From the NCBI GenBank assembly GCA_017399405.1, contig JAFQCT010000012.1, positions 186,001-250,000 of the forward strand: DNA of 64,000 bases, given 5' to 3'. This DNA is from Clostridia bacterium. GTDB lineage: Bacteria; Bacillota; Clostridia; Oscillospirales; Acutalibacteraceae. The position numbers and the translations under genes were made by a program. This document shows positions 1-4,888 of this stretch, piece after piece. The notes under the pieces were generated by a model that did no database searches, was not told the DNA's origin, and worked only from the letters and a program-made list of their open reading frames with translations. How positions within the stretch are numbered: position 1 is the first letter of the stretch; the number at the start of each line of letters is the position of its first letter.

Positions 1-71
1 TTTTCAACTGTAAGTCGCAGTAAATCTTCAAGTGTTTTTGGGTATTGACTTGGTTTCTCAAAAAATCTCAT
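1..71 (-). CDS. 5' end of an unrecognised protein (runs off the window)
   Basis: An ATG at 71 opens a frame that stays open to the window edge (23 complete codons, beginning MRFFEKPSQYPK). An in-frame TGA lies two codons upstream of the ATG, so this is the only possible ATG start here. The ribosome site is weak (a GGG about 10 nt upstream). It follows the LysM/secretin-like gene on the same strand after an 88-nt gap, so it could be the next gene of that locus. The fragment is too short to assign a family. Confidence 0.45.
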   Translation of the reverse strand, partial: MRFFEKPSQYPKTLEDLLRLTVE

Positions 72-159: not shown

Positions 160-1962
160 TTATGCGTTCTGTAAGCTGTTAAGAAGATTTGTCATTCTTG
201 TAGCTTGTGCAGAAGTTACATAAGCGTATGTAACTGCCTTATAAGATGCACCTGTAATCTCGCCTGTTGCTGGGTCTTTTTCACCCTTTTCAAGTTCAAG
301 AATAACTGTTTTGTACTCAATACCACCGAATACGCCATCATAGAGTTCTTGCATTACTTTAATGTTGCTTTCAACAGCCTCAACAGCATCTGCACTATTA
401 TCTTCTGTCTTTGACTGAATTGGAATCCATGTCTTTTCACCTGTGTCAACAGCATCAAGAGTCTGGAGTAATTCAAGAATTTCGTTGTTCCATGTAACTT
501 CATCACAATAAACAATAAGGCTGTTTGTAATTGCTGCATGGTCATAGAGATAGAAACTTACATTTTCATATTTAACGCCTTCAAGACGATTCATAAGTTC
601 TTCAACTGTACAGTTCTGAGCTGTATATGTATGTACTGTGCTTGATGCAGAAGCAACATTTGCGTCAATATCCATAATAATTGCTTTTGCATTATCGATT
701 GCTGTCTGAGTACCGAAGAGCCACAATGATTTAGTCATTCTGTCGTGACCATATACGCTGATACCCTCAACATATCTTGCAATAATTGATTCAGCATCTG
801 CTCTTGTAATGTTAATAAGGTCAATCTTTTCATAAGTGATTGGCTCTTCTTCAGGTTCTTCTGGTGTTGTTGTGTCGTCTGTATTTGTATTGTCATTTGT
901 TGTGTCATCAGAAGGAGTATTTGTTGTATCATCACCTGTTGAATCATCTGGCTTGATTACAGGAGTACCTGTTGCGTTATCACCTGTAATAGCATCTTCA
1001 GTATCAACAACCTTTTTGATTGTCATAATGTCAGCAAGCTGAGTACCGCCTACATAAACGAAGAGAGTCATAGGTCTAACTGACATTGTAATACCTGCAT
1101 GAAGACCAAGGCTTGAAAGAAGATTTGAAAAATCTGTTGCTGAAATATAGTCAAGTTCGATAGGGGTAAATGCAGCAGCAATACTGTTACTACCTACGCT
1201 GATATTTTCAGGAGCATCAAGAATTTCAACGAGTTCGTGAATTTTAGCCATTTCTTTTGGATAAGCTGAAATCCATACATCTCTGCCATTGTTGGTCTGA
1301 GATACAGTTTTAATGTTTGAAAGACCTAATGCACTTGCCTGACCGAGAAGTTCATCATAAGTGATATATTGGAATGAGAACTTTGTAAGTACAAGGCTGT
1401 CCACAAATGTGCTGTTAAGCTCACCAGCAGTAGCAACAAGAATTGTATTACCATCTTTAAGATATGAAAGACCAACCATTCTTGTAACATAATCAATTGC
1501 TTTAAGAGGTGATACTTTTTCAAGGTCAACAGTTACAGTTTCTGTACCTGCACCCTTGTAAATAACTGTATAGCCTGCATTATAAGCGATTGAAGAGATA
1601 AGGTCTTTAACATTTGATTCTTTAGCTTTGATTGTGATGCTTGAAGAAATAACCTGATTTTGTTTATTCTCACTTGTCACTGGAACTTTAAGAATCTGAC
1701 CTCTGTAAATTGAATCACTGCTGTCAAGGTCGTTATAAGTCATAATGTCACTTACTGTAACACCATTCTTACTTGCGATTGAAGCAAGTGTGTCACCGCT
1801 CTTAACTGAGTAATAGCGGTATTGACCGAGGCTTGTTCCTTTTAATCCGCCTCCGTTGTTGTCTGAACCCATTACAGTGAGTGGAGCCACCGCACTGATA
1901 AGGAGTACAATTGACAAAGCAATTACAAGAATTGATTTGCCGAGTCTCTTAGAACCTGTCAT
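160..1962 (-). CDS. Secreted LysM protein with secretin-type N-domain repeats, no secretin barrel
   Basis: This 600-residue protein begins with a signal peptide or anchor (about 1-32) and a LysM domain (about 49-93, YSVKSGDT...GQILKVP), which should bind peptidoglycan. An STN/secretin-N0-like domain follows (about 105-180). Four repeats with the beta-alpha-beta pattern of secretin N1/NolW ring-building domains come next (about 190-250, 264-320, 378-435, 443-505). A Thr/Asp-rich linker (328-375) splits the repeats. The final 90 residues are unassigned. The large beta-barrel domain of true secretins such as PilQ or GspD is absent, as expected without an outer membrane. An AGGGGGAA ribosome site precedes the ATG. 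The PilP-like gene lies 54 bp upstream. Domain calls come from reading the pattern. The function is inferred: a wall-attached ring or scaffold, possibly for a type IV pilus-like or secretion apparatus. Confidence 0.75.
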   Translation of the reverse strand: MTGSKRLGKSILVIALSIVLLISAVAPLTVMGSDNNGGGLKGTSLGQYRYYSVKSGDTLASIASKNGVTVSDIMTYNDLDSSDSIYRGQILKVPVTSENKQNQVISSSITIKAKESNVKDLISSIAYNAGYTVIYKGAGTETVTVDLEKVSPLKAIDYVTRMVGLSYLKDGNTILVATAGELNSTFVDSLVLTKFSFQYITYDELLGQASALGLSNIKTVSQTNNGRDVWISAYPKEMAKIHELVEILDAPENISVGSNSIAAAFTPIELDYISATDFSNLLSSLGLHAGITMSVRPMTLFVYVGGTQLADIMTIKKVVDTEDAITGDNATGTPVIKPDDSTGDDTTNTPSDDTTNDNTNTDDTTTPEEPEEEPITYEKIDLINITRADAESIIARYVEGISVYGHDRMTKSLWLFGTQTAIDNAKAIIMDIDANVASASSTVHTYTAQNCTVEELMNRLEGVKYENVSFYLYDHAAITNSLIVYCDEVTWNNEILELLQTLDAVDTGEKTWIPIQSKTEDNSADAVEAVESNIKVMQELYDGVFGGIEYKTVILELEKGEKDPATGEITGASYKAVTYAYVTSAQATRMTNLLNSLQNA

Positions 1963-2016
1963 TTTTAGTTCCCCCTAAAAACTTTTATATGTAAATTAAA
2001 ATAATTACCGATTTGA

Positions 2017-2523
2017 TTAGTATGTAAGTTGAATTTTCTTTTCGCCCAGAGCTACGATTACACATTCGTCTGTAATGTCTTCAACGAGCCATGAAGATGT
2101 GCCTACATAGTCGCCAACCTGAAGGTGTGGGTAAGATTGATTATCTGCTTCAACTGTTGCTGTGTAGTAACCGTCAGAGTTTACAATAATTGCTGTAACC
2201 TTTGCATTTGCAAGAGCAACATCATCAAAAACATCATCACCAAGCACTTCAATATCTTCGTAATTTCTTACATCCTGTGGAAGTACATCTACTTGTGCAC
2301 CTGAGTTATTGCCACCAACAGGACTTTCGTCAATTTCAATTGTTCCTGTTGTAAAAATAATAACAAGTGCTACAAGAACTGAAATTCCCAAGCAGATTGC
2401 AGGAATAACAACCTTCATTTTTGGGTTTTTCTCGAAGAATCCGGTTAAGCCACCGGCACTTCTTTTGTTACCGCCGCTACCACTTTTAAGCTTAGCGATT
2501 AAGTCTTTAATGTCCATATTCAT
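2017..2523 (-). CDS. PilP/GspC-like single-pass membrane protein
   Basis: The protein has 168 residues: a basic cytoplasmic N-terminus (about 1-37), one membrane span (about 38-60, VVIPAICLGISVLVALVIIF), a linker, and a C-terminal beta-rich domain (about 105-168). That domain has the PilP/GspC homology-region rhythm: a G-D-Y-V-G turn, then V-x-x-I and V-x-L strands. In pilus and type II systems such proteins sit in the inner membrane and contact the secretin N0 domain. Here the next gene encodes secretin N-type domains, so the pairing fits. The start is the ATG at 2523, chosen because TAGGAGG lies 9 nt upstream; an open frame continues to 2616 without a ribosome site. The PilP resemblance is a fold-level judgement. 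Confidence 0.65.
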   Translation of the reverse strand: MNMDIKDLIAKLKSGSGGNKRSAGGLTGFFEKNPKMKVVIPAICLGISVLVALVIIFTTGTIEIDESPVGGNNSGAQVDVLPQDVRNYEDIEVLGDDVFDDVALANAKVTAIIVNSDGYYTATVEADNQSYPHLQVGDYVGTSSWLVEDITDECVIVALGEKKIQLTY

Positions 2524-2837: not shown

Positions 2838-3836
2838 TTAATATTTGAAATTTGCGTATGTAGCTTTTGTTTCTGCTGCGCCTGTACCTGTTACATTGAA
2901 AATTGTAACAGAAATGTCAAGAGATGCACTGAAACCATATGAATACTCAAGTTTTGTAAGGTTACCGTTTTCGATAGTAGCCTTGATAATCATATTATTG
3001 TAGTTAACCTTTGATGATGGCTTAACCTGAACTGCACTACCAACTTCATTTGTAATGCTTGTGTTAACTTCTGTGTATGTGATGAAGTCATTTGTTGCAC
3101 GGTGCATAGCGTTTTTGCCATCTTTCTGTGGGTCTGCACAGTCAACAAGCTGAACCATATATACATTTCCGTCAACTTTAGCGTTTTTAACATCAGCTTC
3201 CTGAATTGTCATAGCTTTAAGGAGATATTTTTCATCCATACCTTCTGCTGCTTTACCTTTTACAATATCAGCTTCTTTTGAGCCTACACCAAGGAAACCG
3301 CCAACAACTGAGTCAAGAGATGCATTTTCGTCAACACCCTTGATAACTGTATTAAGTGCACCTGTTGCTGCACCAACATCAATTGCTTTTGTATAATCAC
3401 AATTTCTTGTCCATTTGTAAGATGCTTTTGCACCTTTTGCTGTAGCGTCATTGATTGCTTTTACGATATCAGCTGTTGAAGGACCATTGTCAGTTGTACC
3501 GCCATTATTTGTAGTACCACTATTGTCAGTTGTGCCACTGTTATCAGTTGTACCGCTGTTATCTGTTGTGCCACTGTTAGAACCACTGTTTGCAAATGGG
3601 TCTGTAGCTGTGCCACCATTGTTTGTTGTATTGTTAGAATCTACATTTTCTGTCTGATTCTGTTCTTTTGCTTTTTCAATAGCGTCTTCTGCTGCTGTTT
3701 TACCCATAGCAACAACTGCGAATGTAAGAACTGCTGCAAGAAGAATTGCCCAGAATTTTGTCCAGTTTTCGCTCTTCTTAGCTTTTTTCATAGCCTTGAT
3801 TTCAGCTTGTTCTGGAGTTAAAGGTTTCTTTGCCAT
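2838..3836 (-). CDS. Membrane-anchored protein of unknown function, tandem paralogue A
   Basis: The protein has 332 residues: a Lys-rich cytoplasmic N-terminus starting MAKKPLTPEQ, one membrane span (about 27-46), an Asn/Gly/Ser/Thr-rich linker with about five copies of a DNSGTT hexapeptide (residues about 85-117), and a C-terminal domain of about 210 residues. That domain is clearly homologous to the one in the next gene upstream (3878-4888): shared DxNASxDSVVGGFLG, a Cys in the K-W-x-R-x-C segment, and CxxPQKDGKNA. I recognise no known family. The orientation implied is a domain outside the cell. AGGAG precedes the ATG. It is probably co-transcribed with its paralogue 41 bp upstream and ends at the terminator 2775-2805. 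Confidence 0.8.
   Translation of the reverse strand: MAKKPLTPEQAEIKAMKKAKKSENWTKFWAILLAAVLTFAVVAMGKTAAEDAIEKAKEQNQTENVDSNNTTNNGGTATDPFANSGSNSGTTDNSGTTDNSGTTDNSGTTNNGGTTDNGPSTADIVKAINDATAKGAKASYKWTRNCDYTKAIDVGAATGALNTVIKGVDENASLDSVVGGFLGVGSKEADIVKGKAAEGMDEKYLLKAMTIQEADVKNAKVDGNVYMVQLVDCADPQKDGKNAMHRATNDFITYTEVNTSITNEVGSAVQVKPSSKVNYNNMIIKATIENGNLTKLEYSYGFSASLDISVTIFNVTGTGAAETKATYANFKY
3489..3582. repeat. 18-bp coding tandem repeat in paralogue A
   Basis: About five consecutive 18-bp units encode Asn-Ser-Gly-Thr-Thr-Asp in the linker. They are coding, in frame, and differ at third positions. Copy number probably varies between strains. Confidence 0.75.
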
Positions 3837-3877: not shown

Positions 3878-4888
3878 TTATGAGAAGTTTGAATAAGTGC
3901 AAATCATATCGCCAGCACCTTTACCTGTAATAGGAATAAGTGTAGCTTTAAGATTAAGTGCTTTAACATTCATTGAGTAAGAAATCTGAACACTCTTAAG
4001 GTTGCCACCATCAATAACAGCTTTAACTACGATTGATGTGAAGTCAACGTCGCAAGATTCAACTTTAAGAAGACTACCAAGTGAGCCAAGAGCACCTGCA
4101 ACGCCTTCTTGAACTTCTGTAAGAGTAATGAAGTCGTTTGTTACATGATTAAGAGCATTTTTACCATCTTTCTGAGGGTTGTTGCAAGCGTTGAGCTGGA
4201 ACATATAATTGTTGCCGTCAACTTTATACTGCATAACATCGCCTTCTGTAAGAGCAAATGCTTTCATAAGGTATTTTTCATTGTTCATTTTACCTTCTGC
4301 TGGAAGCTTACCGCCCTTAACATCAGCAGTCCAAGCTGGGTCATCTTTAGTACCAGTAATACCAAGGAAACCACCAACAACTGAGTCGATAGAAGCGTTT
4401 TCGTCAACTCTTTGAATAATACCGTTAAGTGTTTCTGTTGCATCACCAACATCAATAGGAGATGTGAAATAGCACTTTCTTTCCCACTTATAGTTGCCTT
4501 TATAAACTTTTGCTGTTGCATCGTTTACTGCTTTGATAGCGTCAGCCTTTGAAGTATCTGCTGCGCCTGAATCACCTGAAGGTGTGCTTGTGCTATCACC
4601 TGAAGGTGTGCTTGTGCTGTCGCCTGAGCTTGAGCCACCGAAGTCAACAACATCGTTGTTGCCACCTGTACTCTCACTACCGCCCTGCTGTGTCTGAGCA
4701 CCGCCGTTAACAACTGTGCCGCCACCGATAGCTGGTGCGAATGCAATTGCTGCAAGTGACCATGCGATTGCAATAGCAAGGAAGAATGCTAATGCTTTTG
4801 TAAATGTTCCGAAGAAGAGATTTCTTTTAGCTGTCTTTTTTTCTAATTTAGCCTGAAATTCTTCGGGTGTTAAAACCTTTTTAGCCAT
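3878..4888 (-). CDS. Membrane-anchored protein of unknown function, tandem paralogue B
   Basis: The protein has 336 residues with the same plan as its neighbour: basic N-terminus starting MAKKVLTPEE, a membrane span (about 27-52), a Gly/Ser/Thr/Asp-rich linker with a repeated STPSGD unit, and a C-terminal domain (about 110-336) aligning along its length with paralogue A. The shared motifs include VDENAS-DSVVGGFLG, CNNPQKDGKNA and TNDFIT. The conserved Cys pair could form a disulphide outside the cell. GGGG precedes the ATG, and a promoter is seen at 4932-4960. The pair looks like a recent gene duplication. No function can be assigned. Confidence 0.8.
   Translation of the reverse strand: MAKKVLTPEEFQAKLEKKTAKRNLFFGTFTKALAFFLAIAIAWSLAAIAFAPAIGGGTVVNGGAQTQQGGSESTGGNNDVVDFGGSSSGDSTSTPSGDSTSTPSGDSGAADTSKADAIKAVNDATAKVYKGNYKWERKCYFTSPIDVGDATETLNGIIQRVDENASIDSVVGGFLGITGTKDDPAWTADVKGGKLPAEGKMNNEKYLMKAFALTEGDVMQYKVDGNNYMFQLNACNNPQKDGKNALNHVTNDFITLTEVQEGVAGALGSLGSLLKVESCDVDFTSIVVKAVIDGGNLKSVQISYSMNVKALNLKATLIPITGKGAGDMICTYSNFS
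4573..4618. repeat. 24-bp coding direct repeat in paralogue B
   Basis: Two nearly identical 24-bp units encode Ser-Thr-Pro-Ser-Gly-Asp-Ser-Thr in the linker, which suggests recent slippage duplication. Confidence 0.75.

Follow-up and report, generated by a model that had tools for sequence, protein, structure and literature searches.

In the type IVa pili of bacteria with two membranes, PilP is reported to bind PilN and PilO through its tail and the N0 domain of the secretin PilQ through its HR domain (PMC5285504, PMC3441751). PilQ itself (Neisseria meningitidis 4av2/4ar0; 6ve2) comprises an N0 domain followed by N1-type domains, has PilP as a partner and belongs to a pil operon. For Gram-positive bacteria, both proteins have been described as missing: secretins are reported to be absent from monoderms (PMC6668835), PilP and PilQ are reported to be absent from Gram-positive pili and, within the Firmicutes, restricted to diderm species (PMC4471445, PMC6916266), and Antunes et al. 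call the passage of the pilus through the Firmicutes wall and the existence of a channel protein unclear (PMC5007114). PilQ homologues in pil operons of the Bacillota Desulfotomaculum reducens, Pelotomaculum thermopropionicum and Halothermothrix orenii were reported by Imam et al. (2011) to cluster with Gram-negative pil operons, and the question of their participation in pilus biogenesis was called "intriguing" (PMC3244431). Here, we analyze a window of 64,000 nucleotides (G000:C10:186001-250000) from the 1.96 Mb, 97.5% complete genome of a Clostridia bacterium of the Acutalibacteraceae; among the named genomes of this survey, Ruminococcaceae bacterium UBA3329 is its closest relative. The window contains adjacent genes for a PilP-like protein and for a PilQ-like protein that lacks the secretin barrel. 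It is likely that the two are the PilP and PilQ components of the type IVa pilus machine of a one-membrane bacterium, with a PilMNOP complex that ends in an open collar of N domains. The available text of the open-licence literature searched contained no account of monoderms with PilP and a PilQ that lacks the barrel.

The open reading frames (ORFs) of both proteins lie on the minus strand with 54 bases in between, and the PilQ-like gene is followed by pilT, which continues beyond position 1. On the same strand of the full locus (L001, 19071 down to 2801), the gene order is pilT-pilC-pilM-pilN-pilO-pilB-prepilins-pilD. A first-pass annotation of the window had proposed a neighborhood survey past this edge, and its outcome settles the machine as a type IVa pilus. 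Pfam identifies PilT and PilB (T2SSE), PilC (T2SSF), PilM (PilM_2), prepilins (N_methyl), PilD (Peptidase_A24) and one PilX_N protein, and PilT matches a solved PilT with an E-value of 1.3e-111. Two proteins of 252 and 183 amino acids between pilM and pilB have no Pfam match up to 0.01; they are named pilN and pilO for their position and fitting size. The gene order is the same in UBA3329 as far as the locus of the latter reaches. By these family assignments, the downstream genes are a type IVa pilus operon, and because of their order, the two window proteins fill the places of PilP and PilQ in it. A 13-pair terminator-like site (2779-2807) lies upstream of the PilP-like gene, so the operon probably begins at this gene. 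A 10-bp hairpin (126-148) between the PilQ-like gene and pilT is terminator-like on the plus strand. The operon also encodes a 1304-amino-acid protein with, by eye, a prepilin-type N-terminus (L001 6988-10902, minus strand), the counterparts of which look much shorter in related loci.

The modular composition of the PilQ-like protein (Table 1) is that of the N-terminal part of a secretin behind a LysM domain. The LysM domain, the STN/N0-like domain and the four N1-like repeats that the first-pass annotation had read in this protein were all recovered by profile methods, with the PilQ proteins of seven secretin-bearing Bacillota as reference for N0. In profile-profile comparison, repeats R1 to R4 are mutually homologous at 94-99%, and R2 and R4 connect to PilQ N1 only via R1 and R3. 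The C-terminal domain is possibly a divergent further N domain, given its partial similarity to R1-R3. The low-complexity linker between R2 and R3 is long only in the window's own family (alignment A6). Taken alone, the window protein matches Secretin_N (1.2e-3) and STN (6.4e-3) below the curated cut-offs, and the NCBIfam models of SctC/EscC, GspD and PilQ at 1.4e-5 to 4.5e-4, all far below theirs; the GspD match falls in R3-R4. Among 25 relatives, Secretin_N is matched by 22 (best 2.8e-20), STN by 14 (best 3.8e-8), the PilQ model TIGR02515 by 20 (best 2.2e-13) and the GspD model TIGR02517 by 19 (best 9.8e-18). A profile of 25 PilQ-like proteins reaches solved PilQ structures at about 1e-11 at the N0 positions (4av2 PilQ chain: 2.5e-11). 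It matches GspD with E-values near 1e-9 (5wq7: 1.3e-9, profile positions 259-457). The most conserved segment of the alignment is, by a small margin, the start of N0, where PilP binds in N. meningitidis (PMC3441751). The protein differs in length between genomes; in G726, it has 255 amino acids with LysM, N0 and one repeat only.

Several N1-type domains in a row are shared with GspD, from which the window system differs by its missing barrel and by its neighbors pilT, pilM and prepilins. The differences from PilQ are the lack of a barrel, the four N1-type repeats, a LysM domain or nothing in place of AMIN domains, and a host in which no Omp85 is found. TsaP is a LysM protein of Gram-negative pili. 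The full PilQ proteins of the seven secretin-bearing Bacillota (L118-L124) are encoded in six of seven loci without a recognised pil gene nearby other than the PilP-like one; their N0 begins within about 50 residues, and therefore they have no room for AMIN domains. The homologues of Imam et al. (2011) likewise belong to pil operons of Bacillota; the available text of that paper makes no mention of a barrel-less architecture, LysM, a PilP partner or fusion (PMC3244431). Since the C-terminal secretin domain is the defining feature of secretins and is missing here, the barrel-less PilQ should not be called a secretin. Most likely, it works like the periplasmic half of one.

The PilP-like protein consists of a short cytoplasmic tail, one transmembrane helix, a linker and an HR-type beta domain (topology by eye). 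Its length of 168 amino acids is counted from the ATG, while the mechanical ORF begins at a TTG at 2616. By itself, the protein has no Pfam match up to an E-value of 0.01 and matches neither the PilP nor the GspC curated models. A profile built from 25 proteins that occupy this gene position does match solved PilP (2ivw: 4.5e-6; 4av2 chain M: 8.6e-6) and GspC (3.1e-4), so that the HR-type C-terminal domain is recognizable at profile level, and the PilQ-like and PilP-like profiles match chains of one and the same solved entry, 4av2. The relatives share the HR consensus DPF..KL.GI....G..AI.E...SY.V..G...GDS.W.V..I....V.L. Single sequences among the 25 match the GspC model in 11 cases, T2SSC in five and PilP (PF04351) in two. 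The protein thus shares with PilP and the HR domain of GspC a C-terminal HR-type beta domain and the adjoining PilQ-like and pil genes. It differs from PilP in that curated models match just a part of the relatives, and weakly, and in its anchor, a transmembrane helix (by eye) instead of a lipid; one relative (L104) has, by eye, a lipobox-like start. When the window's own family was excluded from the profiles, the PilQ-like and PilP-like proteins were the sole clear hits (1.7e-49 and 4.8e-21; next 0.56) among 350 ORFs (179 from the window and 171 control ORFs). At family level, this upholds the first-pass annotation, which had recognized a single-pass upstream partner with a PilP/GspC-type domain and had proposed profile searches for the ring-domain and PilP homology. 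It had also named the SpoIIIAG-AH channel as a precedent. SpoIIIAG/SpoIIIAH is likewise a multimeric monoderm envelope complex, with proteins weakly homologous to the YscJ/FliF family (PMC2703783), but it belongs to a different protein family and no SpoIIIA match to the window proteins is found up to an E-value of 1. The precedent stands as an analogy only.

Table 1. Features of the PilP-like/PilQ-like locus (window positions; residues refer to the PilQ-like protein).
Feature	Position	Strand	Basis or remark
5' end of pilT	1..71	-	downstream of PilQ-like gene; rest beyond position 1
Barrel-less PilQ-like protein, 600 amino acids	160..1962	-	profile matches
N-terminal signal sequence	1867..1962	-	hydrophobic N-terminus of translation, by eye
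LysM domain, residues 51-94	1681..1812	-	PF01476, E 1.9e-14
N0/STN domain, residues 106-186	1405..1647	-	hhalign 97.9% to N0 of Bacillota PilQ; PDB PilQ matches
N1-type repeat R1, residues 187-255	1198..1404	-	hhalign 89.9% to PilQ N1; 98.6% to R2
N1-type repeat R2, residues 258-324	991..1191	-	hhalign 98.8% to R3; directly to PilQ N1 just 39.4%
Low-complexity Thr/Asp/Pro-rich linker, residues 325-375	838..990	-	sequence
N1-type repeat R3, residues 376-436	655..837	-	hhalign 98.4% to R1; 71.2% to PilQ N1
N1-type repeat R4, residues 440-508	439..645	-	hhalign 94-96% to R1-R3; directly to PilQ N1 just 3.7%
C-terminal domain, residues 510-598	169..435	-	partial hhalign 62-81% to R1-R3, 2.9% to R4
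PilP-like protein, 168 amino acids	2017..2523	-	ATG behind AGGAGG
Transmembrane helix of PilP-like protein	~2347-2418	-	by eye
C-terminal HR-type beta domain of PilP-like protein	~2020-2238	-	relatives' consensus and profile matches

The window's genome contains no match to the secretin barrel (PF00263), which likewise does not occur among the Pfam matches of the 25 relatives and of ten proteins from outside the class, and which exceeds its cut-off in none of the 38 genomes that carry the family. Sub-threshold matches of some 20-60 residues are present in proteins elsewhere in the genome in eight of the 38. The end of the secretin model is matched below threshold by proteins of about 316-359 amino acids in G810:C39, G081:C28, G943:C3, G631:C14 and four others. 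Searches for Omp85 were negative in all 19 genomes of a first set that carry the PilQ-like protein and in all 11 of a second set (G654 and ten carriers), but positive in all three true-PilQ genomes tested (G541, G410 and G381). The first-pass annotation had noted the missing outer-membrane barrel and had pictured the inner part of a pilus or type II apparatus in a cell without an outer membrane; these searches, together with the downstream pil operon, support the pilus version of this view.

The family is carried by 11 of 295 genomes of the order (hit list read by eye). In the first order search, 53 genomes matched; most of those without the family did so through LysM alone. LysM-only similarity was discarded and later searches used a LysM-free alignment (A3). 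The LysM-free profile matched 20 of 391 class genomes, 18 of which are readable after two were dropped: the match in G822 (E 4.4e-4) looks by eye like an STN-type protein of another kind, and that in G760 covers just 165 bases where a contig begins. Five more genomes, namely G237 and G265 (same genus), UBA3329, and the f7 family members G081 and G135, raise the number of class genomes whose locus can be read to 23, and the pair is located at pil genes in every one of them, a prepilin gene counting as such. For G700 and G631, this linkage depends in part on a second contig, on which the PilQ-like tail comes first and pilT next. Outside the class, ten of 15 genomes picked for weak PilQ matches carry the barrel-less protein, all ten at pil genes, and a PilP-like part is present in all ten loci (six by profile, three fused, one by eye); the other five, G557 and four f51 genomes, have weak PilQ matches and no credible barrel-less protein. 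In total, the carriers belong to 14 families, of which seven are members of the class and seven are not. Alignment A6 leaves out G683 (its PilP row is kept in A7), the copy of G700 at a contig edge (L105), L130 and L039, which is a near-copy of L038. The PilP rows of A7 were picked by position beside the PilQ-like gene, with a BLAST match in 14 of the 15 separate ones (not L104). Two PilP-like ORFs (L041 and L198) lay hidden behind longer ORFs and were recovered by listing all ORFs.

The presence of the pair is correlated with a specific type of PilT. PilT is found at 1e-90 or better in 143 of 391 class genomes, and 17 of the 18 readable PilQ-like genomes of the class sample have a PilT of one distinct clade. 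In the 18th (G705), where the pair ends at a contig edge, only a conventional PilT is seen. In a tree of 56 PilT sequences, which leaves out five short fragments and one long-branch row (L189), a branch with 100/100 support separates 25 sequences from the others, among them 16 rows of conventional Clostridia and nine of secretin-bearing Bacillota. Two of the 25 are not seen with the pair: G654, and G750, whose contig starts at pilT and whose row (L138) is labelled with the pair's group in the tree. The ORFs of ten conventional pilT loci (L167-L176, three of them lone pilT genes or short contigs; 171 ORFs) contain no hit of either profile. A hit of the full PilQ-like profile in L170 was rejected, being a LysM protein without N domains; the LysM-free profile finds nothing among the control ORFs. 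A second, conventional pilT also occurs in the operon-bearing G631, G810 and G765 (L166, L095 and L174). In this sample, the clade is placed neither within conventional Clostridia nor among secretin-bearing Bacillota. It may be a vertical relic or the result of transfer; the root and outgroup branches of the PilT tree are too long and few to favor either. PilO is 160-206 amino acids long in 19 loci with the pair, versus 257, 399, 456 and 484 amino acids in four conventional Clostridia operons (by profile), a large PilO being a monoderm feature according to Pelicic (PMC6916266). One locus (L216 in G412) has two pilM-pilN-pilO sets, with a PilO of 250 amino acids in one and of 160 in the set nearer the pair.

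In two lineages, the PilP-like and PilQ-like proteins are one protein: in G631 and G705 (one genus of f151) and in G341, G379 and G446 (one genus of f77, outside the class). By eye, each fused protein has a membrane helix at its N-terminus and lacks both LysM and a second signal sequence. Both f151 copies are cut off by a contig end on the 3' side, and the PilP/PilQ junction is internal in all five. The f151 and f77 fusions are probably separate events. Fusion is expected for partner proteins, and homology and fusions strongly suggest that PilP binds N0 here as well.

The arrangement that we consider probable would be as follows. The PilP-like protein would join PilM, PilN and PilO at the membrane and bind, through its HR domain, the N0 of its PilQ-like partner. 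The N0 and N1 domains would project outward and probably pack side by side as in secretins, so that an open collar would encircle the pilus as it grows, immediately outside the membrane. The lack of a barrel or gate would follow from the lack of an outer membrane. LysM, where present, may pin the collar to the peptidoglycan; it stands where proteobacterial PilQ has its AMIN domains. In lineages without LysM, the sole visible tether would be PilP, by outright fusion in two of them. N-domain rings are about 2-2.5 nm high each, such that five or six stacked rings would measure 10-15 nm, near the Gram-positive inner wall zone. That a wall anchor can be useful is indicated by Pseudomonas aeruginosa, in which the machine is mislocalised without the peptidoglycan-binding AMIN domains of PilQ (PMC5285504). 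Pilus guidance, load bearing and wall anchoring are functions that we infer for the collar.

Several observations weigh against the collar. LysM is optional: it is found in 12 of 25 relatives, hence missing from about half, and in one of ten proteins outside the class. Wall anchoring by LysM, which the first-pass annotation had suggested, may therefore apply to the LysM-bearing window protein but is not part of the common core. The AlphaFold models, based on two-row alignments (window and UBA3329), are poor and unusable, with a mean predicted local distance difference test score (pLDDT) of 45.9 for the PilQ-like and 47.5 for the PilP-like protein; the best-modelled region of the former is the C-terminal domain, with a block pLDDT of 65-85. 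A Foldseek search with the PilQ-like model put secretion-system entries on top, but at TM scores of about 0.1, which proves nothing and was not used. Ring formation by the PilQ-like protein is inferred. Another pil locus (G654, same PilT clade) is complete without a PilP-like or PilQ-like gene, and its genome has no match in the class search; this pilus may therefore do without the pair. The same locus (L163) has a second PilB-like ATPase of 506 amino acids directly upstream of pilT. Finally, a conventional locus (L168) has a 199-amino-acid gene after pilN that is by eye a pilO, so a short PilO is not exclusive to loci with the pair.

An alternative would be a monomeric tether that forms no ring, links the PilMNOP base to peptidoglycan or wall positions, sets the sites of pili and bears the pulling force. 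The LysM domain in 12 of the 25 relatives, the five genomes in which the protein is fused directly to a membrane helix and the positioning of the P. aeruginosa machine by the peptidoglycan-binding part of PilQ (PMC5285504) all fit such a role. Nonetheless, four N1-type repeats, which have the ring-forming fold of secretins, are kept although a simple tether would not need them, and many relatives have no wall-binding domain visible to Pfam. We regard a mere tether as unlikely.

A general envelope scaffold, for which pili are just one setting, is about equally unlikely. It is suggested by family f18, in which the two genes lie side by side in six of six genomes with no pil genes within the 11-20 kb read, which also counts against a pilus collar. 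PF00482 (PilC family) was not found in four of these genomes (G039, G017, G101 and G128) and PilM not in five. The f18 proteins match profiles that were built without f18, at 1e-36 to 2e-63 for the PilQ-like protein, LysM adding to the two best, and at 2e-7 to 5e-12 (23-38 bits) for five of six PilP-like proteins, two of the five from near-identical loci and the sixth by eye; in a shuffled control, the best of 1000 sequences reached 7.5 bits. The function of the pair thus need not be bound to the pilus. Yet, the f18 genomes are incomplete (75-97%), the pair lies at a contig edge in G017, and 33 other genomes have the pair at pil genes. In several of the f18 loci (L037, L038, L040, L041 and L042), genes near the pair resemble, by eye, holB, an alanine racemase and a FemAB-type enzyme.

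Decay after loss of the outer membrane, which would leave former secretin genes without barrel or use, agrees with the missing barrel and with an in-frame stop in the G683 copy, but it is very improbable as 14 families keep operon place and partner and G683 is the sole class match with an internal stop. That the host is in fact diderm, or encodes the barrel elsewhere as a split or ordinary secretin, hardly deserves consideration: some Bacillota are diderm with PilQ (PMC5007114) and 82 of 299 phylum genomes match the PilQ model at 1e-3, none of them above its cut-off, but neither Omp85 nor a barrel over cut-off was detected in the PilQ-like genomes searched.

Upstream of the PilP-like gene, two tandem paralogous proteins of 332 and 336 amino acids, single-pass by eye, are encoded on the minus strand (2838-3836 and 3878-4888). 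They contain low-complexity linkers, have no Pfam family at cut-off and are present in UBA3329. As parts of the system they were rejected, since they do not occur at the same place in G265 or G237.

With the likely reading as PilP-PilQ arm of a one-membrane pilus, the pair is a concrete candidate for the missing wall-crossing part of Firmicutes pili. More tentatively, and with somewhat less than even confidence, it may define a previously unrecognised type IVa subtype in single-membrane Bacillota, in which a gateless, barrel-less secretin would form stacked N-domain rings as conduit and brace across the inner wall zone. This protein may be derived from a secretin that a diderm ancestor possessed, and the f18 pair may have left the pilus as a stand-alone wall scaffold. 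The pair bears on the argument whether Firmicutes descend from diderms, and it would show which part of a secretin stays useful without an outer membrane. The retention of the inner half of the gate together with its membrane partner suggests how pili may be aligned and pass a thick wall.

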